From NCBI RefSeq assembly GCF_014203095.1, contig NZ_JACHIG010000003.1, forward strand, positions 124,001-188,000: 64,000 nt of DNA, written 5' to 3'. The notes under the pieces are model-generated. The model searched no databases. It had not been told where the DNA came from and saw nothing but the letters and a program-made list of their open reading frames with translations. Below are positions 34,936 through 44,717 of this stretch, piece by piece; position 1 is the first letter of the stretch; every line of letters starts with the position of its first letter. Position numbers and translations under genes: made by a program. The DNA is from Prosthecobacter vanneervenii. GTDB taxonomy: Bacteria > Verrucomicrobiota > Verrucomicrobiia > Verrucomicrobiales > Verrucomicrobiaceae.

Positions 34936-36339
34936 GTGAACACACTCTCCCCCTCAGCGTTTGGTGCTCCGAAGGTTTCCGTTTTTAGCGGCAAAGCCTG
35001 CTACGACGATACCGATGCACTCCGCCGGCAGATTGAGGCCGCCATCGCTGCGCTGGAGCTTTCCGCAGACTTTATCACTCCCGGGGACAGGGTGGTCATC
35101 AAGCCAAACTGGGTCAAGGAACACAACGCCAGCAAACCGGAGGATGAAGGCGGCTGGCTCACCATCATCACCCATCCAGCAGTCGTTCGAGAAGTGGCCC
35201 GCTGGGCTGCGCGCAAACTGCAAGGGCGCGGCTCAGTAACGCTGTGTGATGCACCGCAGAGTGACTCCTCCTTTGATGCCATACGACGACTGCATAAGCT
35301 GGACGCCTTGATCACCGATCTCACAGTGGAGTTTCCCGGAGTGGCATTTCTGCTCTTTGACATGCGCTGCGAGGAATGGACGATTGATGATGGCGTCACG
35401 ATCGCCAAAAGAGAACTGCCCAGCGATCCCTGCGGTGCGGTGGACATTCATCTGGATGAGGACAGCGAGTTTGTAGGCCATCCGGGCCTGGGGAGGCTGT
35501 ATGGCGCCTCGTATGATTTTGCCACAACGAACCGGCAGCACACCGACCCAAATCACGAGTACCGCATCTGCCGAACTCCGATGAATGCGGATGTGCTGAT
35601 CAATGTGCCGAAGCTCAAGACCCACAAGAAAGTGGGGCTGACGGTGGCACTGAAAAACCTGGTGGGCACCACACCGAGAACCAACTGGCTGCCGCGCCAC
35701 ACGGAAGGCACTCCTGCAGAAGGTGGGGACCAATTTGCCGAATCCAGCACGAAGCGTGCATTGGAGGGAACCCTGATGCGCAACGCGAAGAAAGTCCTGT
35801 TTGGCAGACATTTCCTTTCCAAGCTATTTGTGCCACTCAAGAAGCTGGGCCGTCTGGTGTTTGGCGACACCAAGCATGTCGTGCGGTCCGGCAACTGGCA
35901 TGGCAACAACACGGCGTGGCGGATGATCCTGGATCTGCACAAATGCTTTTTCTATTTTGATGGACGAGGAGTCAAAAGAGACAAACCTCTGCGCTATCTG
36001 ACCATTGTGGACGGCATCATCGGCGGCGACGGCGACGGTCCCATGTCATGCGATCCCGTGCCGAGCGGGGTGATCCTGGCGGGAACACATCCCGTAGCGG
36101 TGGATTGCGTCAGCGCCCAGCTCATGGGCTTTAACTGGAAGAAGACGCGACTGCTGAACGACGCCTTTGTCATCGAGCGCCTACCGATCACGGGGTTTGC
36201 CCCTTCAGACATCGTGGTGACCTCCAACAAAGCTGAGTGGTCAGGACCGTTTGAGCAGATGAAAGACTGTTTTGAGTTTCGCTGCCACTTTGGCTGGGCG
36301 GGACACCTGGAAAGTGATGCGAGACTGGCCAAGATGTGA
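34936..36339 (+). CDS. DUF362 domain protein
   Basis: A 467-residue protein from a GTG start. DUF362 hallmarks are VVIKPNWVKEHN near 53-64, ITHPAVVREVARW, NVPKLKTHKKVGLTVALKNLVGTT in part near 223-246, and TIVDGIIGGDGDGP with GTHPVAVDCVSAQLMG toward the C-terminus. It lacks the ferredoxin-type cysteines that some DUF362 proteins carry. The family is often found in polysaccharide or cofactor gene clusters, but no such genes are adjacent. The GTG is used because no ATG lies nearby in frame and the residues after it lead straight into the domain. A terminator-like hairpin follows. Confidence 0.88.
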   Translation: MNTLSPSAFGAPKVSVFSGKACYDDTDALRRQIEAAIAALELSADFITPGDRVVIKPNWVKEHNASKPEDEGGWLTIITHPAVVREVARWAARKLQGRGSVTLCDAPQSDSSFDAIRRLHKLDALITDLTVEFPGVAFLLFDMRCEEWTIDDGVTIAKRELPSDPCGAVDIHLDEDSEFVGHPGLGRLYGASYDFATTNRQHTDPNHEYRICRTPMNADVLINVPKLKTHKKVGLTVALKNLVGTTPRTNWLPRHTEGTPAEGGDQFAESSTKRALEGTLMRNAKKVLFGRHFLSKLFVPLKKLGRLVFGDTKHVVRSGNWHGNNTAWRMILDLHKCFFYFDGRGVKRDKPLRYLTIVDGIIGGDGDGPMSCDPVPSGVILAGTHPVAVDCVSAQLMGFNWKKTRLLNDAFVIERLPITGFAPSDIVVTSNKAEWSGPFEQMKDCFEFRCHFGWAGHLESDARLAKM

Positions 36340-36402: not shown

Positions 36403-36430
36403 GATAGGTCGGCGATTGACCTATTCTTTT
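36403..36430 (+). terminator. Terminator-like hairpin after the DUF362 gene
   Basis: Perfect arms ATAGGTC (36404-36410) and GACCTAT (36418-36424), extended by one G-T pair, enclose a 7-base loop and are followed by TCTTTT. It starts 64 bases after the DUF362 stop codon and looks like an intrinsic terminator with a short U-tract. Confidence 0.55.
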
Positions 36431-36740: not shown

Positions 36741-39700
36741 ATGTCGTTCCTTGCTCCTCGTCACATTCGTCGTGGTCAATGGCTTGCCCTAATCTTGATC
36801 GCAGGCCTTTTCCACGGAACCCGAAAGCTGTCCTGGGGAGCCCCGGACATGAACATTACCAAGGCCGTCTGGAAATCTCTGTATGGAGTCACTGACGCGC
36901 AGATCAATGATTCCGCCTGGCTGGCAAAAGACGATGACGGCGACGGCATGAGCAACAGCGCCGAAATCACTGCGGGCACCAATCCCTTTCAAGCAGGATC
37001 CATTCTCAAGATCAGCTCGATGACGATGCCAAACCCGACAACGGTCAGCATGACGATCCCTACTCAAACGGGAAAGCTCTACGTGCTGCAGTCTTCAAAC
37101 ACGCTGGCGAGCACCAACTGGTCTGCGATCACGCCGAATGTGCAGGTGATTGGCAATGGCGCAACGCAGACGCTGACTGCTCCAGCCTCCGGGACGAGCA
37201 CCTTCTACCGCGTGCTGGTGCAGGATGTCGACTCTTCAGGGGATCAGGTGGGTGACTGGGCCAAAAATCTGCTGGGCTACTCGGCTGGTGCGCCTATCGG
37301 ATCTCAATCCAGCTATGACCACACGACGCTGGCCACAAGCCTGCTGACGCAAAATGTGGTCAGCCTTAAAGCCACCGACTCGTCCACCACGCAGCCCTCA
37401 GATGCGACCACACCGGCAGGAGACGTAGGCATCATCACCATTACCCGCTCAGGCTACAATCTTCTGGCGCCGATCACGGTGCCCCTTAGCAAATCGGGCT
37501 CAGCCGTTGAAGGGGTGGATTATGCCACAGTTCCCTCTACCGTGACTTTCCCAGCCGGAGTCAACTCCGTGGACATCAAAATCACGCCAGTGTACAACGC
37601 CAACCGCCTGACTAGCTGCGCGATGACACTGACCGCAGGCCCCCCAGGGTCTGCCGGAGCTTCGGGAAATTACACCCTCAGCTCGCTCTCCATCAGCGCC
37701 GGGGTGACCATCAATCCTTCCGGCAATCCCACCGGCACGGGGCTTACTGGAAACTATTTCGTCGGAGCCAGCTCCACTTACAGCAGCAATGTGAATTTTG
37801 GCGGCAACACGGCGAGCTACACCTTCACCAAGCTGACAAGCACGACCGGAACGGCTGTCATCACCTATACCGGCACGACTGGATTTTCGACAACCTCACC
37901 CAACAACCGCGTCAACCTGACCTTCACCGCTGGTGCCCTCAGCGGAGGAACCTATGACGGCATCAAGACTATCACGGCCACATCCGGGCAGACGATCACA
38001 GTGTCTATTACCGGAGCGGCGGTCCCAAATTCCCAAGGCAGCAGCACCGCATGCGTGCTGAACCCTCCAGTGGTGACACGGCTGGATCCGACAGTTGCGT
38101 TCAGCTGGCTCTACGGCTCGCCAAACGGCACCAACCTGGTAGCGCAGGATAATTACTCCGTGGCGTGGGACGGCTACCTGGCACCTTCGACCGCCGGAAC
38201 GTATGTGTTTCAGCTGGATGCAGATGACAAAGCGCGTGTGCTTCTGGACACTGGCAGCGGACTGACTCAGATCCTGGAAAATGGCTGGGACACTGCGGCA
38301 ACAGGAACCTTCAAACAAAGCGGATCGTTCTCCCTGTCCATACCCGCAGCGCCCGCAAACCGCTACCATATCCGGGTGGAGTTTGTGGAAACCACCGGCA
38401 ATGCGAAGTGTAAATTTCAGTGGCAGATCAATGGTGGGACCTTTGCCAACATTCCAAGCACCAACATTTATACCAACAACACCGCCAGCACGGCGGGCTG
38501 GGCTGCCAGCTACTATGCCAACACCACTTTCACCGCGCCTGCGGCTGGAACACAGACGGACAGCGCCATTACAAACGGCAACAACGGCGACTGGGGAGCG
38601 GGCTCTCCTGATCCGCTTATTTTCCACAACTACTTCTGCTGCCGCTGGACAGGCCAGATACTACCACAGTACAGCGAGACCTACACAATCGTGGTGAATG
38701 CTGATGACACGGCCAAGCTGTGGATCAGCGGCCAACCAATGACGCTCAGGCGCCTGACAAACGACAGCCCAAGTGTCACTTATACCTATACGCAGAATTC
38801 ATCGACCAACGGCACTATTGTGCTGCCGTACACCAGCGCCGCCATCAACGTGGGGGATGTCATTCCGCTGAAATTCACAAGCGGTAATCTTAGCACGAGC
38901 TACAACATCTCCCTGCCTTACACGGTAACTGCGGTAACAGCGGGCACCAACTTTACCGTGGCTTTGACCGGCACGAGCCTGCCAGCCTCGGGCACAGGAA
39001 GTTGCTCCATCGACAGCAGCAACCTGCCGGTTGACTGGTCCGTTTACACAGGGGCAGACCGTTACGTTACCATCCCCCTTCAAGCAGGAGTTCTTTATGA
39101 CATCAAGCTGGAGACATGCGAGTTCACAAGCGCAGCCGGGGCAACGCTCTCATGGTACAGCCCGAGCCAGTCCAAGCAGGCCATTCCTACCGCCCGCCTT
39201 TTCCCAACGATGACCGGACAGACACCGCGCGCTGGTGATCCGCCAGCCGGGCCGCCAGCGATCACCAGCCCGACCAATCTGGTGACGATGCTTAACTCCG
39301 GTTCCCCCTTCAACCTGACACTCACCGCGAGCAACGGCGCAGGAAGCTTTACCGCAAGCGGCCTGCCGTCTTGGCTGACTCTTAGCAATGGCGTGCTTAG
39401 CGGCACCCCAACGCAAGCGGGCATTTATCAGTTTACGGTCACCGCCTCAAACGGAGCTGGCAGCACCAGCGCGGTGATCACCGTGCAGGTGGAGGACAGC
39501 GGCGGCCAGTTTACGCGTGAGCTCTGGACCACCGGGGTCGCCGGAGCCTCTCTGAATGACGTGCCATGGAGCACTGCTGCAACCACGACAAACACCATCA
39601 CGAGCGCCGAAGATAACACGACGAGCTATGGTGCGAACACAGGAGAAAGGCTGCGCGGATATTTCACCCCGACTGTGACCGGTAACTACTACTTCTGGCT

Positions 39701-42700
39701 CTCCGCCGCGAATGTAGCCGAATTGTGGATCTCCAATGATGAAGAGCCGGTGAACAAAGTGCGCCGAGCCTATGTGACAGGGCCTACCGGCACCTCCACC
39801 AGGACTTGGAATACAGCCACGAGTCAGAAATCCGGCTGGCTGTCGCTGATTGCAGGGCAGCCCTATTACATCGAGGTGCTGCACAACACCGGCGCCAGCG
39901 GCGCATCCAACAACCTCTCCGTAGGCTGGTATCTGGACCCGACAGGAAACTCCGCAGCGATCGCCAATGGCAGCGGACCAGCAGCAGCCACCACCGGCGG
40001 GGTAATGCCAGGCTATGTGCTTTCGCCATGGGATAATCCTCCGACCACCACCACACCGGGCACACTCTACATTACCAACCTGCAGGGGGCCGCCGGCCTC
40101 TCTGGCATCACGGGCAGTGGTGGAGCATTTATCCGAGTCAGCGGCTCCACAGGGGTGGTGCATGTGAACTATGCTGGTCTGACCTCAGGAAGCACCTCGC
40201 GCAAAATCTATGCAGCTCAGACTGGAGGAAACCCACCCGTAGTGCTGTTTGATTTCGACGCCCAGGACCGCAACTATCCCACGCAACGCACCTCGGACGG
40301 CGGATACACCTGGAACATGCAGGCCTCTGATCTCACTGCGCTGGCCAACGGCACCGTGTTTGTGAGCATTGCCACCGTGAACAATACTGGGGGCGAACTC
40401 ACGGGCACCTTCGGGCTTGTGCCAGGCTCCCAGACAGCACCGGCGCTGCCCAGCTACCCGTCATGGACTGATGACCATGCCACTGACGCAGGTGCCGTGC
40501 GCTTTCTGACCCAAGCCACCTTTGGGCCCAGCCCGAGTGACATCACTTATGTGGAGGCCAACGGCTACCGGAACTGGATTGAAAATCAGTTTGGCCTGAC
40601 CGCCACGCGCAATGTGCCCTACATCCTGGCTAATCTGAGCAACGACCCTCAGAATCCCTACCCGAGCTCGCTGTTTTTCAACTCGTGGTGGAAAAACTCG
40701 GTCACAGCATCAGATCAGCTGCGTCAGCGAGTCGCCTTTGCGCTCAGCGAGATTCTGGTGGTGTCAGATGTAGGGCCGCTGAACAACAACGGACGCATCC
40801 TGGCCGATTACTATGACAACCTTGTGGACTCCTGCTTTGGCAACTACCGGGATATTTTAAAGCAAGTGACGCTGACGCCGGCCATGGGGCTGTACCTGGA
40901 CATGCTCCAAAACGACATTGGAAACGACTCCACAGGCATTCATCCCAATGAGAACTATGCGCGTGAAATCATGCAGCTCTTTTCCATCGGCCTGTACCGC
41001 CTGTGGCCAGATGGCTCTCTCATCCTGGACTCGAGCGGCAATGCGGTGCCCACCTATGACCAGTCCGTGATCACCGGCATGGCGCGTGTGTTTACAGGAT
41101 GGACCTGGGGACAGGCCATGAGCGGAGGCAGGCTGCCGACCAACTTTTACCCCAGCAGCAACTACCTTGATCCGATGGTGCTCGTGCCTTCGCATCATGA
41201 GCCGGGTAAAAAGATCCTGCTCGACAATGTGGTGATCCCGCCTGTGACCGTCTCGTTTGTGAACGACTACTCCCGCGATCCTAATCCCAACCCGATCACG
41301 ATCCAGTCCACGGACCCAGTGCTAGGAGCCGGAAACCTTGTATCCACCTCGATCACCAATTCCTATGATCTGAACGGCCTGCGTGACCTGGAGTCGGCAC
41401 TGGACAGCATCATCAACAACTCAGCGATTGGCCCTTACATCTGCCGCCAGCTCATCCAGCGGCTCGTCACCAGCAATCCGAAACCAGAATACGTTCATCG
41501 AGTGGTGCGTGCGTTCAATGGCGAGCGCAACGTGGACGGCGTGGCAACTGGTGTGCGTGGAGACATGAAGGAAGTCATCCGGGCCATCCTGCTGGACTAT
41601 GAAGCGCGGAGCACCACGGCGGCAGCTAACGTGGGCTTTGGCAAACAGCGCGAGCCGCTGCTGCGCCTGACCGGACCTGCGCGTACTTTCCCGGCCACTG
41701 GGTTTGCCGGATCCACCTACCGCCAGCTCGGCTACCAGCAGATCCTGATCACCACGCCTACAGCACACAAGCTGACCAACGGAGACACCATTTTGCTCGA
41801 CACCTTTGTGGATGGCGGGGCATCCACCACGAATCTGCCCAGCGTGGGCGGGTACACAGTGGCCAATACAACGCCGAGCTACAGCACTGTGAGCTCCAGC
41901 GGGGTGGTCACGATCAACTCTCCAGGCTTCCAGGCGGGAGATACAGTAACGATGCAGTTCACCTCAGGCACTCTTGGCACCACTTCTCCCTACAATACTG
42001 TGCGCACTTATTCGGTGGTTACCGCCACAACGACCAGTTTCACAGTCAACATTGGGGCCAACAGTGTCAGCGGCAATCCTTCCGGGAACGCCTTCCTGCC
42101 GAACAATTTCACCGTCAACACCACCGGCATCAGCACGCCGAACTATAATGGGGTAACCAACACCGTTACCATCACCGCCTCAGGCTATATTGCCGGACAT
42201 CAGCTATATGTGAAATTTTTCAACGGCAGCCTGGCAGGAGCGGGCTACGACGGTGTTTACACAATCACCTCGGCGACATCCAGCAATTTCACCATCACTC
42301 TGCCGGGGAGCCCGCCAGCGACGAGCAGTGGCACGGCCTACATCCCGCGGTTTACTGGCGGCTACAACATCACCACAGCCAGCAACGTCTCGACCATCAG
42401 TCTTCAGACCAACGGCAATCATAATCTCAATGTCGGCGATTCTGTGTGGATCGACATTCTGGTGGCCAACAGCCCCACAGCCGCACCAAGCCAGGTGTAC
42501 ACCGTTGCCAGCGTGCCACGTCCCAACCAGTTCACTGTGACCACAACGCCGGCGGTGACGAATGGCTCTCAGAGCACTTCGGGCCAGGCCGTCTATCCGT
42601 TGTCCATCGCCCAGTGGACGCGCTCAGGAAACTGCACCGTGCAGCTGGGCACGTGGAACATGGGCTACAGTCAGAATGACCTGACGCAAACCCCGCTGGC

Positions 42701-43157
42701 CTCCACAACTGTCTTCAACTTCTTCTATCCTGACTATCATTACCCGGGAGCCATGGCCAGCGCAGGCATGACGGTGCCGGAATTCCAACTGACGAACGAC
42801 TCCAATACAATGAATCTGACCAACACGGTAACGGGTGGATTCCTGAGCGGCGGCAACACCTACGGTTTCCAGAGCTTCCGTAGTGGCGGCGGCTCCATCC
42901 CGATGGATATCAGCCCCTATATGACGGCGGGACAGACGAGTGACGCCGCCATTCCCACGCTGGTGGACACCCTGGCCACACGACTGATCGGAGGAGCACT
43001 GAACTCAACGGCACGCACGGCCATCATCAACTATGTGGCCAACACCACCAACTTCCCCTACACCACAGGCAGCCCAACCACGACGCAGATGCGTGATCGT
43101 GTGCGCGCGATCATTCATCTCATCGTCACATCCGCCGAATACGCGATCCAGAAGTAA
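36741..43157 (+). CDS. Giant secreted multi-domain DUF1800 protein with nested beta modules
   Basis: A 2138-residue secreted protein. After a signal peptide (about 1-34) it has a Ca-binding thrombospondin-3-like loop (DDDGDGMSNSAE, about 64-75), a Calx-beta-like domain (207-310), a first PA14 (about 333-590), a second PA14 (592-830), an Ig-like/cadherin-type domain (835-925; SGLPSWLTLSNGVLSGTP), a third PA14-like domain (925-1080), a linker beta domain, and DUF1800 (about 1265-2130; RFLTQATFGPS, NENYAREIMQLFSIGLY, TTVFNFFYPDYHYPG). Similar beta modules appear to be inserted in both PA14 domains and in DUF1800. DUF1800 proteins are paired with DUF1501 proteins, here 6 bases downstream; the activity is unknown. 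It is probably surface or extracellular. Confidence 0.9.
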   Translation: MSFLAPRHIRRGQWLALILIAGLFHGTRKLSWGAPDMNITKAVWKSLYGVTDAQINDSAWLAKDDDGDGMSNSAEITAGTNPFQAGSILKISSMTMPNPTTVSMTIPTQTGKLYVLQSSNTLASTNWSAITPNVQVIGNGATQTLTAPASGTSTFYRVLVQDVDSSGDQVGDWAKNLLGYSAGAPIGSQSSYDHTTLATSLLTQNVVSLKATDSSTTQPSDATTPAGDVGIITITRSGYNLLAPITVPLSKSGSAVEGVDYATVPSTVTFPAGVNSVDIKITPVYNANRLTSCAMTLTAGPPGSAGASGNYTLSSLSISAGVTINPSGNPTGTGLTGNYFVGASSTYSSNVNFGGNTASYTFTKLTSTTGTAVITYTGTTGFSTTSPNNRVNLTFTAGALSGGTYDGIKTITATSGQTITVSITGAAVPNSQGSSTACVLNPPVVTRLDPTVAFSWLYGSPNGTNLVAQDNYSVAWDGYLAPSTAGTYVFQLDADDKARVLLDTGSGLTQILENGWDTAATGTFKQSGSFSLSIPAAPANRYHIRVEFVETTGNAKCKFQWQINGGTFANIPSTNIYTNNTASTAGWAASYYANTTFTAPAAGTQTDSAITNGNNGDWGAGSPDPLIFHNYFCCRWTGQILPQYSETYTIVVNADDTAKLWISGQPMTLRRLTNDSPSVTYTYTQNSSTNGTIVLPYTSAAINVGDVIPLKFTSGNLSTSYNISLPYTVTAVTAGTNFTVALTGTSLPASGTGSCSIDSSNLPVDWSVYTGADRYVTIPLQAGVLYDIKLETCEFTSAAGATLSWYSPSQSKQAIPTARLFPTMTGQTPRAGDPPAGPPAITSPTNLVTMLNSGSPFNLTLTASNGAGSFTASGLPSWLTLSNGVLSGTPTQAGIYQFTVTASNGAGSTSAVITVQVEDSGGQFTRELWTTGVAGASLNDVPWSTAATTTNTITSAEDNTTSYGANTGERLRGYFTPTVTGNYYFWLSAANVAELWISNDEEPVNKVRRAYVTGPTGTSTRTWNTATSQKSGWLSLIAGQPYYIEVLHNTGASGASNNLSVGWYLDPTGNSAAIANGSGPAAATTGGVMPGYVLSPWDNPPTTTTPGTLYITNLQGAAGLSGITGSGGAFIRVSGSTGVVHVNYAGLTSGSTSRKIYAAQTGGNPPVVLFDFDAQDRNYPTQRTSDGGYTWNMQASDLTALANGTVFVSIATVNNTGGELTGTFGLVPGSQTAPALPSYPSWTDDHATDAGAVRFLTQATFGPSPSDITYVEANGYRNWIENQFGLTATRNVPYILANLSNDPQNPYPSSLFFNSWWKNSVTASDQLRQRVAFALSEILVVSDVGPLNNNGRILADYYDNLVDSCFGNYRDILKQVTLTPAMGLYLDMLQNDIGNDSTGIHPNENYAREIMQLFSIGLYRLWPDGSLILDSSGNAVPTYDQSVITGMARVFTGWTWGQAMSGGRLPTNFYPSSNYLDPMVLVPSHHEPGKKILLDNVVIPPVTVSFVNDYSRDPNPNPITIQSTDPVLGAGNLVSTSITNSYDLNGLRDLESALDSIINNSAIGPYICRQLIQRLVTSNPKPEYVHRVVRAFNGERNVDGVATGVRGDMKEVIRAILLDYEARSTTAAANVGFGKQREPLLRLTGPARTFPATGFAGSTYRQLGYQQILITTPTAHKLTNGDTILLDTFVDGGASTTNLPSVGGYTVANTTPSYSTVSSSGVVTINSPGFQAGDTVTMQFTSGTLGTTSPYNTVRTYSVVTATTTSFTVNIGANSVSGNPSGNAFLPNNFTVNTTGISTPNYNGVTNTVTITASGYIAGHQLYVKFFNGSLAGAGYDGVYTITSATSSNFTITLPGSPPATSSGTAYIPRFTGGYNITTASNVSTISLQTNGNHNLNVGDSVWIDILVANSPTAAPSQVYTVASVPRPNQFTVTTTPAVTNGSQSTSGQAVYPLSIAQWTRSGNCTVQLGTWNMGYSQNDLTQTPLASTTVFNFFYPDYHYPGAMASAGMTVPEFQLTNDSNTMNLTNTVTGGFLSGGNTYGFQSFRSGGGSIPMDISPYMTAGQTSDAAIPTLVDTLATRLIGGALNSTARTAIINYVANTTNFPYTTGSPTTTQMRDRVRAIIHLIVTSAEYAIQK
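37805..38060 (+). repeat. Nested beta module A, inside the first PA14 domain
   Basis: Residues about 355-440 interrupt the PA14 fold between its first strand (GLTGNYFVG) and the usual continuation (VVTRLDPTVAFSW). The inserted part carries VNLTFTAGALSGGTYDGIK and TITVSITGAAV, the same strand pattern as the other modules in this protein. Confidence 0.6.
38750..39030 (+). repeat. Nested beta module B, inside the second PA14 domain
   Basis: Residues about 670-764 interrupt the second PA14 between DDTAKLWISGQP and PVDWSVYTGADRYVTIPL, which would otherwise be adjacent. The insert has NVGDVIPLKFTSGNL and YTVTAVTAGTNFTVALTG, matching modules A, D and E. Confidence 0.6.
41733..42597 (+). repeat. Four tandem beta modules (C-F) inside the DUF1800 domain
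   Basis: Residues about 1665-1953 separate two normally close DUF1800 parts (REPLLRLTGPART and the TTVFNFFYPDY region). Four units can be read: C from 41733, D from about 41901, E from about 42152 and F from about 42383. Shared pattern: a strand ending in HxL or GF/GY, then xxGD/GHxVxxxF, then a Tyr-containing TVxxV strand and a FTV strand. Confidence 0.6.
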
Positions 43158-43163
43158 CTCCGT

Positions 43164-44717
43164 ATGAACAAGCCACTTCACGCCCCATTCATTCCGCGTC
43201 GCAGATTCCTGCAGCGCTACATTCCGGCAGCCATTGGCCTCGGCGCTCTTGGAAATTCGCTCCGCGATCTCAAGCTCATGGGTTCAGCCATGGCGGCCGG
43301 TTCATTCTCCGACTACAAGGCGCTCATCTGCGTCTTCCTGAATGGCGGGAATGACTCGAACAACCTGATCATTCCGACGCAGGCTGCCGACTGGGCCAAC
43401 TACAGCGCCGGACGTGGCGCACCGCTGGCCATCCCCAACACGGATGGAAGCGGAGCGACAGCGCTGGCGCTCAACTCACGAAACGGCACAAACGGATATC
43501 CAGCCAGCGACGGCCGCACTTATGGATTCCATCCAGCCATGGCGGAACTGGCCACCCACTTTAACAACGGCATCGTGGCACCCGTGTTCAATCTAGGCAC
43601 GCTGAGCTTTCCACTGACCAAAGCGCAATACTCCGGCAAATCAGTGCCCAAACCGCCGCAACTTTTCTCCCACAGCGATCAGCAAACTCAGTGGCAGACC
43701 TCGCTGCCTGACCAGCCGTCTGTCAGCGGATGGGCCGGAAGACTGGCGGACTTGTTCTCTTCTCCTCCGGACGTGAACTCAGGGGGACAGGTTTCCATGG
43801 CAGTGACAGTGGCCGGCTCCAACATTTTTGAAGTGGGAACGCAGAATTATGCGCCGCAATATGCCATCACCACCAGCGGCGCAGTGCAGCTGAGCAGCGT
43901 CAGTGGCAACAGGCAGAGTGCCATGCAGTCCATCCTGAATGCTGACAAGCTCTCCGCCGATCTGCAGACCAAAGCTTATGCAGGCGTGCTGGACCACGCC
44001 ATCGCCGAGGCCAACATTCTAAGCACGGCGCTCACGGCTCAGGGAACCCCCACCTGGTTCAGCCGTTTCCCAACGTCGATCACCACTCCGAACGGCGGTT
44101 CCACCTTCACCTCCTCCCTCATGTCACAGATGAAAATGGTGGTGCGCCTCATCGAACTGGGGAGCAAGTCCGTGGCCAGTGGAGGTCTGGGCATGAAGCG
44201 GCAGGTTTTCTTCATCCAGGTGGGAGGCTATGACACGCACACCAACCAAACCAACAATGCCGGCCAGAGCACCACGAACAACGCCAACGTCATCATCGGT
44301 GGCCAGGCCAACCTGCTGGCGGAGCTGAGCAAGACTCTGAATGCGCTCATTCTCTCACTTCAGGATATTGATACTCTCCGTGGCGCCGGATCGAGCCTGG
44401 TGAATTCTGTCACTGCTTTTACTGCGAGCGACTTTGCCCGCACCTTCCCCACCAATGGATCGGGCAGCGATCACGGCTGGGGCGGACACCACCTTGTCAT
44501 TGGCGGGGCGGTCAAAGGTGGGGCCACGTATGGCAAGTTTCCCACCCTGGCGGTGAACGGTCCGGATGACACTGGCATCGGGCGCTGGATTCCCACCACC
44601 TCTGTGGATCAATACTCCGCCACGCTGGCATCCTGGTTTGGGGTGGACTCCTCAAACATCAACACCATTTTCCCCAACCTAGGCCGCTTCTCCTCCTCCA
44701 ACCTTGGCTTCATCTGA
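43164..44717 (+). CDS. DUF1501 domain protein
   Basis: A 517-residue exported protein with a Tat-like start (RRRFLQR at 12-18 and a hydrophobic run after it), followed by a DUF1501 domain, an alkaline-phosphatase-superfamily-like fold. Visible blocks are LICVFLNGGNDSNNLIIP (about 54-71), GFHPAMAELATHFNNG, QVFFIQVGGYDTHTNQ and the metal-site-like FARTFPTNGSGSDHGWGGHH near the C-terminus. DUF1501 and DUF1800 genes occur together in many PVC bacteria and their combined role is unknown. The 6-base gap after the DUF1800 gene indicates co-transcription. The ATG at 43164 gives the twin-arginine start. Confidence 0.93.
   Translation: MNKPLHAPFIPRRRFLQRYIPAAIGLGALGNSLRDLKLMGSAMAAGSFSDYKALICVFLNGGNDSNNLIIPTQAADWANYSAGRGAPLAIPNTDGSGATALALNSRNGTNGYPASDGRTYGFHPAMAELATHFNNGIVAPVFNLGTLSFPLTKAQYSGKSVPKPPQLFSHSDQQTQWQTSLPDQPSVSGWAGRLADLFSSPPDVNSGGQVSMAVTVAGSNIFEVGTQNYAPQYAITTSGAVQLSSVSGNRQSAMQSILNADKLSADLQTKAYAGVLDHAIAEANILSTALTAQGTPTWFSRFPTSITTPNGGSTFTSSLMSQMKMVVRLIELGSKSVASGGLGMKRQVFFIQVGGYDTHTNQTNNAGQSTTNNANVIIGGQANLLAELSKTLNALILSLQDIDTLRGAGSSLVNSVTAFTASDFARTFPTNGSGSDHGWGGHHLVIGGAVKGGATYGKFPTLAVNGPDDTGIGRWIPTTSVDQYSATLASWFGVDSSNINTIFPNLGRFSSSNLGFI

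Follow-up and report, generated by a model that had tools for sequence, protein, structure and literature searches.

Insertion of a small domain into copies of itself is already known from HABAS (Si3) of the bacterial RNA polymerase beta' subunit, a small beta domain that, in parts of the published account, is defined by a four-stranded sheet with a GD-box-like motif and occurs within copies of itself in numbers that vary by lineage (PMC11515920); passages of a survey of nested insertions describe six levels of nesting in cyanobacterial RNA polymerase (PMC13114784). Two further beta-barrels bear on the gene described here: that of the phage endosialidases (Pfam PF12195, End_beta_barrel), which according to a section on the K1F tailspike carries a sialic-acid site (PMC12632334), and E1_FCCH (PF16190), which an excerpt on E1 enzymes describes as likewise inserted, into the inactive adenylation domain (PMC12355090). 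DUF1800 and DUF1501, in turn, are presented in part of one report as an operon pair whose DUF1501 protein has a twin-arginine motif (PMC5122149); one passage of PMC4960237 names DUF1501, and the main text of PMC5615132 names neither domain. Here we analyse a DUF1800 gene of Prosthecobacter vanneervenii within a 64,000-nucleotide stretch of contig NZ_JACHIG010000003.1 (assembly GCF_014203095.1, positions 124,001 to 188,000), hereafter the window.

The product of this gene, the window protein, has 2138 residues and comprises, from N- to C-terminus, a TSP3 repeat (TSP3_bac), two PA14 domains, a GLEYA or PA14-like domain, a CHRD domain and DUF1800. Its Pfam matches include DUF1800 (PF08811, 4.8e-67, 227.4 bits against a cut-off of 26.1) and PA14 (PF07691, 3.5e-37, 127.9 bits over four stretches, accompanied by the PA14 fold). 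Six segments, A to F, interrupt these domains. We consider it very probable that they are copies of one six-stranded barrel, of the endosialidase or E1-FCCH type, set into loops of PA14 and DUF1800 and once apparently into another copy, and that they were duplicated mainly within the gene and then inherited. The host domains continue beyond the inserts, the same sites are empty in some relatives and filled in others, and the module at site B is split by further copies in 16 sister species.

The homology of the segments was assessed with profiles built without rows from the window protein, their rows being hand-picked from the aligned inserts of other species. A profile of four DUF1800-site modules matched C (independent E-value 5e-7), D (1e-4), E (2e-5) and F (2e-10), and also B in the second PA14 domain (6e-5), but not A; a profile of six B-site units matched B (2.5e-7), D (9e-5) and, weakly, A (0.03). 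The best full E-value for these two profiles among 198 shuffled copies and one reversed copy was 0.33. Site-against-site comparison with hhalign, which drew on more rows, joined A with B (3e-14) and with AB (8e-14), a site between the two PA14 domains, E with F (1.5e-11), and B with C/D (8e-9), while site G, near the end of DUF1800, matched C/D at 8e-8 and AB at 2e-4. These profile comparisons show the six segments to be homologous, A less strongly so. In the organism's own genome the module profile gave six matches at E <=0.001, all in this gene; a very weak match (E 0.08) was seen outside the window in an open frame of 11,644 residues (G000:C5:475515-475703). A preliminary description of this DNA, made by eye, had recognised six units of a shared pattern in one protein. 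Those units are real, in that the cross-site profiles match B to F and marginally A, and the limits first given to the three insert regions (residues 355-440, 670-764 and 1665-1953) shift to 357-441, 677-761 and 1657-1955.

AlphaFold predicts six strands each in A, B, D, E and F, and in C four strands plus one beyond D; in A the strands span positions 32-40, 45-52, 66-71, 83-91, 94-100 and 108-115 of a model that begins at residue 325. Structure comparison (VIA) placed module F nearest to the phi92 endosialidase 4hiz (Z 9.6, root-mean-square deviation 2.0, 80 residues, 28% identity), giving it an endosialidase-type barrel fold with the barrels of other families within 1 Z. The barrel of E1_FCCH was recovered as well, in UBA1 and UBA6 (Z 7.4-8.3), although middling Z values are common and weak taken alone. 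Among these similar folds we prefer the endosialidase barrel because sequence decides: in the PDB, the F profile retrieved 4hiz (3.2e-7) and further endosialidases (4e-4 to 8e-4), and PF12195 was matched at E <=0.1 by 22 of 24 F modules (best 4.7e-8) and by 4 of 13 AB modules. The window's own F matched PF12195 at 4.6e-5 with 23.7 of 35 bits, below the curated cut-off for membership. By profile, F therefore appears closest to the phage endosialidase barrel, and the site G inserts of sister species resemble E1_FCCH, with 15 of 16 matching PF16190 at E <=0.1 (best 9.7e-6; the one member with full output lies below cut-off). Inserts of two paralogues in genome G010, lying in the same loop of DUF1800, score 39.7 and 30.9 bits with E1_FCCH (each summed over two stretches, against a cut-off of 29.5), and the window's genome gave no E1_FCCH match at E 0.001. 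The resemblance to FCCH and phage tail repeats that had been noted by eye is upheld: the solved chain nearest by profile is a phage endosialidase, and the fold matches FCCH as well. Other searches with these profiles returned little: a mixed module profile found 8bke (9e-5) and the putative coat protein 6mnt (0.009) in the PDB, the G profile found a single chain (0.089), and phrog_10467 of PHROGs, for which no function is given, was matched by 6 of 24 F modules and not by the window's. An adiponectin chain returned by the F profile at 1.5e-5 was rejected as chance, consisting of only three 15-residue matches.

Relatives of the gene are referred to by locus (L), genome (G, with G000 the organism's own) and contig (C) numbers. 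The alignment comprised 29 proteins including the window's; L088, L097, L100, L102, L104 and L128 had been dropped beforehand as partial genes or another gene, as had L105-L127, which matched only near the start of DUF1800 or slightly before it. A host tree built with FastTree from 1439 non-insert columns of 28 proteins (all but L098) and rooted on L086 by choice separated clade I, made up of the window protein and L072-L077, from clade II, the remaining loci L079-L103. L078, which is cut by a contig end, fell outside both, and its A module is placed with the A modules of the subclade to which the window protein belongs. L098 was also left out of the C profile, L085 and L086 out of the site alignments, and L080, or L079 and L080, out of two of these; the module tree was built without L086 and without low-scoring or short matches. 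An alignment of 14 rows and that of 29 rows are not independent, some loci representing the same genomes (e.g. L009/L072, L011/L073 and L040/L084).

In a tree of 181 modules, calculated from few columns, the site label changed 13 times against a mean of 126.7 after shuffling. Modules thus group by site and not by species, which implies one or a few filling events per site, followed by inheritance. The outer and inner B modules of clade II formed a single clade of 34 modules (support 100/97), in favour of local copying. That these B modules are each other's closest kin also argues against repeated import of modules from other genes or phages, an explanation we regard as rather unlikely. The module profile at 0.001 found matches in 18 of 56 near relatives, 17 of them of the same genus code, and, setting aside two on a short contig (G023:C444), the matches lay in this gene family, bar one in an open frame of 12,739 residues; among the matches listed, those to PF12195 (5 of 56 genomes) and PF16190 (7 of 56) were likewise all in this gene family, none singly over the cut-off. 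A tblastn search of phage genomes, using one AB module and the window's module F as queries, found no relative, none was among the stretches of viral contigs returned by the family alignment (82) and the AB-module alignment (three), and a plasmid search with the DUF1800 inserts (310 residues) gave no match. On the side of import, 8 of 288 genomes across the phylum had module matches at 1e-4, several of them in large proteins of other kinds, among them an M6 peptidase, a sortilin-like protein and a 4221-residue protein with CBM5/12, so the module fold is not exclusive to this gene, and the E1_FCCH-like modules in large proteins of the phylum make import possible. At least six species have a repeat of another type, VGM, nested in site AB. 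When the DUF1800 model was compared with viral structure predictions, it matched a DUF1800 protein from phage and numerous tail fibre, baseplate and endosialidase proteins; the template-modelling scores were low and the matching part was not shown. The near-relative match in the open frame of 12,739 residues, in G032:C25, has an E-value of 5.8e-4.

Movement of the module within one gene, as the preliminary description had suggested, has good support only in other species, in their nested B copies; the tree did not settle the case of the window's own B. The four B modules of the window's clade grouped with the A modules of clade II (95/84), strong support was gone once four HGL-type (E1_FCCH-like) rows were removed, and an approximately unbiased test did not reject a single B clade (p 0.246, or 0.449 without the HGL rows). 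The boldest form of the proposal strikes us as doubtful: that the barrel spread from loop to loop within its own gene, its own loops included, to as many as four levels (PA14, then barrel in barrel in barrel, in L087, L089, L091 and L096, the last level being short matches), and that the window's B arose independently of the sister clade's. The copies are old. Dating them by nucleotide alignment, a check proposed at the outset, yielded no datable repeat: self-blastn of the window gene found no DNA repeat, and among 35 genes compared with themselves 7 had short repeats of 68-89% identity, the window's none.

Among the 29 aligned proteins, L079, L080 and L086 have nothing at site A and 25 carry a module there; in L099 a contig end truncates the site. 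Five proteins (L075-L078 and L086) lack a module at site B; of the 24 in which the site is filled, 8 hold a single module (the window protein, L072-L074, L079-L081 and L103) and 16 several. Clade II accounts for all 20 rows (of 29) with a module at site AB, one of which is truncated at a contig end, and for all 17 with a module at site G. All seven proteins of clade I have D, and none of the 19 clade II proteins compared does. It is quite unlikely that every site was filled in the ancestor and the empty ones arose by later loss. A was likely lost in L079 and L080, because their clade II relatives, clade I and L078 all have it, and for B one gain with one loss in L075-L077 is as short on the host tree as two gains. 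Set against this, the PA14 sequence at site B is plain in L075-L078 and in the outgroup L086, and L139, an orthologue at greater distance, is without A, B, D and G; it has one uninterrupted PA14 and three module matches, all in DUF1800, corresponding to C, E and F with C unsplit. A sequence of events in which the DUF1800 modules came first and the PA14 modules later would fit L139, but rests on that one protein.

Nesting is seen more clearly at site B of other species than in the window protein. With a profile of eight single-copy B modules, all 16 enlarged sites gave an outer N-terminal half (profile position 1 to about 56), at least one inner copy, and an outer C-terminal half, the inner unit being whole or nearly so (about 13-90) in each; the general module profile picked up the N-terminal half in 16 of 16 and the C-terminal half, at >=6 bits, in 4 of 16. 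In L087, L089, L091 and L096 an HGL-type module seems in addition to lie inside the inner B copy, less surely, since the last strand of that copy is short. In the window protein, D sits where clade II modules pass from their fourth to their fifth strand, its own six strands are followed by one that is missing from C, and a clade II profile scores C at 47.6 bits when joined across D against 39.3 when read straight into D. D thus apparently lies inside C. The initial placement of A in the first PA14, B in the second and C to F in the DUF1800 loop holds, but the tandem order supposed for C to F does not: since D appears inside C the stretch is no simple tandem, and a plain C-D-E-F array was set aside because C occurs without D in sister species and in L139 and because the strand after D fits C. 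We find it improbable that the nesting is only apparent, with module halves duplicated side by side (N-N-C-C) and no whole domain inserted. The order of pieces would be the same, N-type and C-type pieces are homologous, and halves could have swapped domains; yet in the enlarged B sites the outer halves retain the same host-side flanks as the single-copy form around the (nearly) whole inner unit, and D is a complete set of strands followed by one that fits C.

The host domains themselves read on past the inserts, as had been noted when the units were first described. The 33-residue piece of the first PA14 before A is too short for a Pfam match alone, and the match picks up at profile position 17 at the end of A. 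An AlphaFold model of residues 325-835 (predicted local distance difference test score, pLDDT, 86.5) aligns with the PA14 structure 6qe7 (Z 20.5, 144 residues) over a range that spans both PA14 copies, from which the aligned copy is not readable; the DUF1800 model had no PDB match in Foldseek at E 0.001 or better, and its VIA rows were taken up by module F. The empty sites virtually exclude that the segments are regular components of the PA14 and DUF1800 folds, within whose outer limits they lie, given that the Pfam profiles resume across them, that the C-F stretch of 380 residues corresponds to 67-70 residues in seven of seven short DUF1800 proteins (one alignment, from this and related genomes), and that PA14 occurs without inserts in L075-L078 (B), L079 and L080 (A) and L139 (both). 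The comparison with homologues lacking the inserts, which the preliminary description had called for, thus came out in its favour. In G010 (L038 and L039), two of three copies of the gene have a single PA14 without inserts, yet 567-590 residues at the C-F place in DUF1800.

Several results weigh against the reading of six homologous barrels, partly nested and copied within the gene. No Pfam family matches modules A to E above cut-off, and F matches only below it. A profile of four HGL-type modules gave no match in the window protein and one shuffle at 0.08, and with B alone as the query one shuffle reached 0.026, about equal to the match to A (0.019). Site G matched A or B only weakly in hhalign (0.007-0.009). 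For the fold, F matches an NADPH oxidase domain (Z 9.4) and riboflavin synthase (Z 9.1) on a par with 4hiz, the plain Foldseek E-value for 4hiz is only 0.027, and the DUF1800 model has a mean pLDDT of 73.5, with four sister models at 55-66. As to recursive self-insertion, which is found by sequence in all 16 enlarged B sites, the outer C-terminal half scores 6.8-36.6 bits and in 7 of the 16 stays under 13.2 (6.8-13.1); for D in C the finding consists of the strand count and a gain of only 8 bits.

If the six segments are indeed copies of one barrel, their spread may be explained by the barrel itself, which would fold independently and have both ends close together, so that it could enter host loops and other barrels alike. 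Copies would have come mainly from duplication inside this gene, the E1_FCCH-like kind perhaps having been brought in separately, and each added copy would then have been passed on vertically. Their most likely role, itself a guess, would be to enlarge loops and so give a surface lectin-like protein additional area for contact with glycans or for spacing. Glycan contact is a guess that we hold tentatively, by analogy with the phage endosialidase barrel and its sialic-acid site; plain spacing is another guess, also tentative.

Compared with the endosialidase barrel, which module F resembles in sequence profile and fold, the modules here fall below the Pfam cut-off, are hosted by DUF1800 and PA14 and not by a sialidase, occur in several copies, some of them nested, and have no known ligand. 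E1_FCCH shares a similar barrel fold, and its profile gives matches in the site G modules (at E <=0.1) and in the DUF1800 inserts of the G010 paralogues (summed over two stretches), while the window's modules do not exceed its cut-off; it too is an insertion, but present as one copy in E1 against several here. The likeness to HABAS is one of recursive insertion pattern, taken from published descriptions, as the domains themselves were not compared. The differences are that another protein is involved, that the insertion sites lie in two kinds of host domain, in a linker and in the module itself, and that empty, single and nested states occur in close relatives. As in other DUF1800-DUF1501 pairs, DUF1501 follows here too, whereas short DUF1800 proteins are without the C-F inserts (7 of 7 compared). 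In the literature searched, with most subscription journals outside it, we found no description of such inserts in DUF1800 proteins, in agreement with the preliminary description; as far as these searches reach, this domain, these hosts and the range of intermediates are new.

While domain insertion is usually encountered only in its end state, one orthologous protein here shows intermediates: among close relatives its sites are empty, filled once, occupied by nested copies, and once probably emptied again. Such natural intermediates make it testable which loops accept a domain, how nesting relates to insertion order, and how local the copying is. They also tie a phage tailspike-type barrel to the widespread DUF1800/DUF1501 pair of unknown function, and serve as a warning for automatic annotation, as Pfam names 0 of the 6 inserts in the window protein above cut-off.

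Features of the DUF1800 gene and its downstream neighbour, in window coordinates
Feature	Position	Strand	Residues	Evidence and remarks
Gene for multidomain DUF1800 protein, carrier of the six modules	36741..43157	+	2138 in all	open reading frame and Pfam
Bacterial TSP3 repeat	36930..36995	+	64-85	Pfam PF18884
First PA14, N-terminal part, before A	37713..37808	+		alignment with PA14-containing relatives
Module A, six-stranded barrel within first PA14	37809..38063	+	357-441	profiles, AlphaFold strands; empty in L079, L080, L086, L139
First PA14, remainder	38061..38447	+	441-569	Pfam PA14 profile 17-141
Site AB, empty here; extra module between PA14 domains in sister species	38478..38480	+	after 580	insert in L079-L083, L103
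Second PA14, part before B	38496..38738	+		Pfam PA14 profile 4-80
Module B, within second PA14	38769..39023	+	677-761	profiles, six AlphaFold strands; empty in L075-L078, L086, L139
Second PA14, part after B	39063..39188	+		Pfam PA14 profile 101-144, 16.2 bits, below cut-off as fragment
GLEYA or third PA14-like domain	39651..39923	+	971-1061	Pfam PF10528; no module recognised inside
CHRD domain	40110..40406	+	1124-1222	Pfam PF07452
DUF1800, part before inserts	40500..41684	+		Pfam profile 1-310
Module C, first part	41709..41876	+	1657-1712	clade II C profile
Module D, apparently inside C	41877..42101	+	1713-1787	missing in clade II and L139; score gain; six AlphaFold strands
Module C, last strand	42102..42134	+	1788-1798	AlphaFold strand and clade II C profile
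Module E	42132..42353	+	1798-1871	profiles; six AlphaFold strands
Module F, endosialidase-type barrel	42351..42605	+	1871-1955	PF12195 match below cut-off; VIA match to 4hiz
DUF1800, part after inserts	42669..43145	+		Pfam profile 320-418, 25.5 bits, just under the 26.1 cut-off as fragment
Site G near DUF1800 end, empty here; E1_FCCH-like module in sister species	43035..43037	+	after 2099	
DUF1501 gene, 6 bases downstream, usual partner of DUF1800	43164..44717	+		Pfam PF07394, 4.7e-23

The DUF1800 protein is probably secreted, as judged from its hydrophobic N-terminus and domain content, and its nearest named relatives are in metagenome-assembled genomes of Prosthecobacter and other Verrucomicrobia. 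Upstream, on the same strand, lies a gene for a DUF362 protein (34936-36339), followed by a terminator-like hairpin (36403-36425); promoter and terminator patterns, terminator-like sites included, were no more frequent than in shuffles.

Some relatives exhibit further variations in arrangement. In L084, L085, L087, L089, L091 and L101 the different repeat nested in the AB module is of the VGM type (GL-VGM-V-G-GLPAN--ITA), and by eye it occurs twice in L091 and L101. The paralogue L086 has a further module-like insert (residues 1219-1276) at another DUF1800 position, near residue 1503 of the window protein, the sole such case among the 29 proteins. Relatives with one PA14 (L038:11960-12496 and L086) align half to the first PA14 and half to the second, which may reflect PA14 duplication or fusion. 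In G010, three copies of the large DUF1800 gene lie close together (G010:C1:238899-263677).

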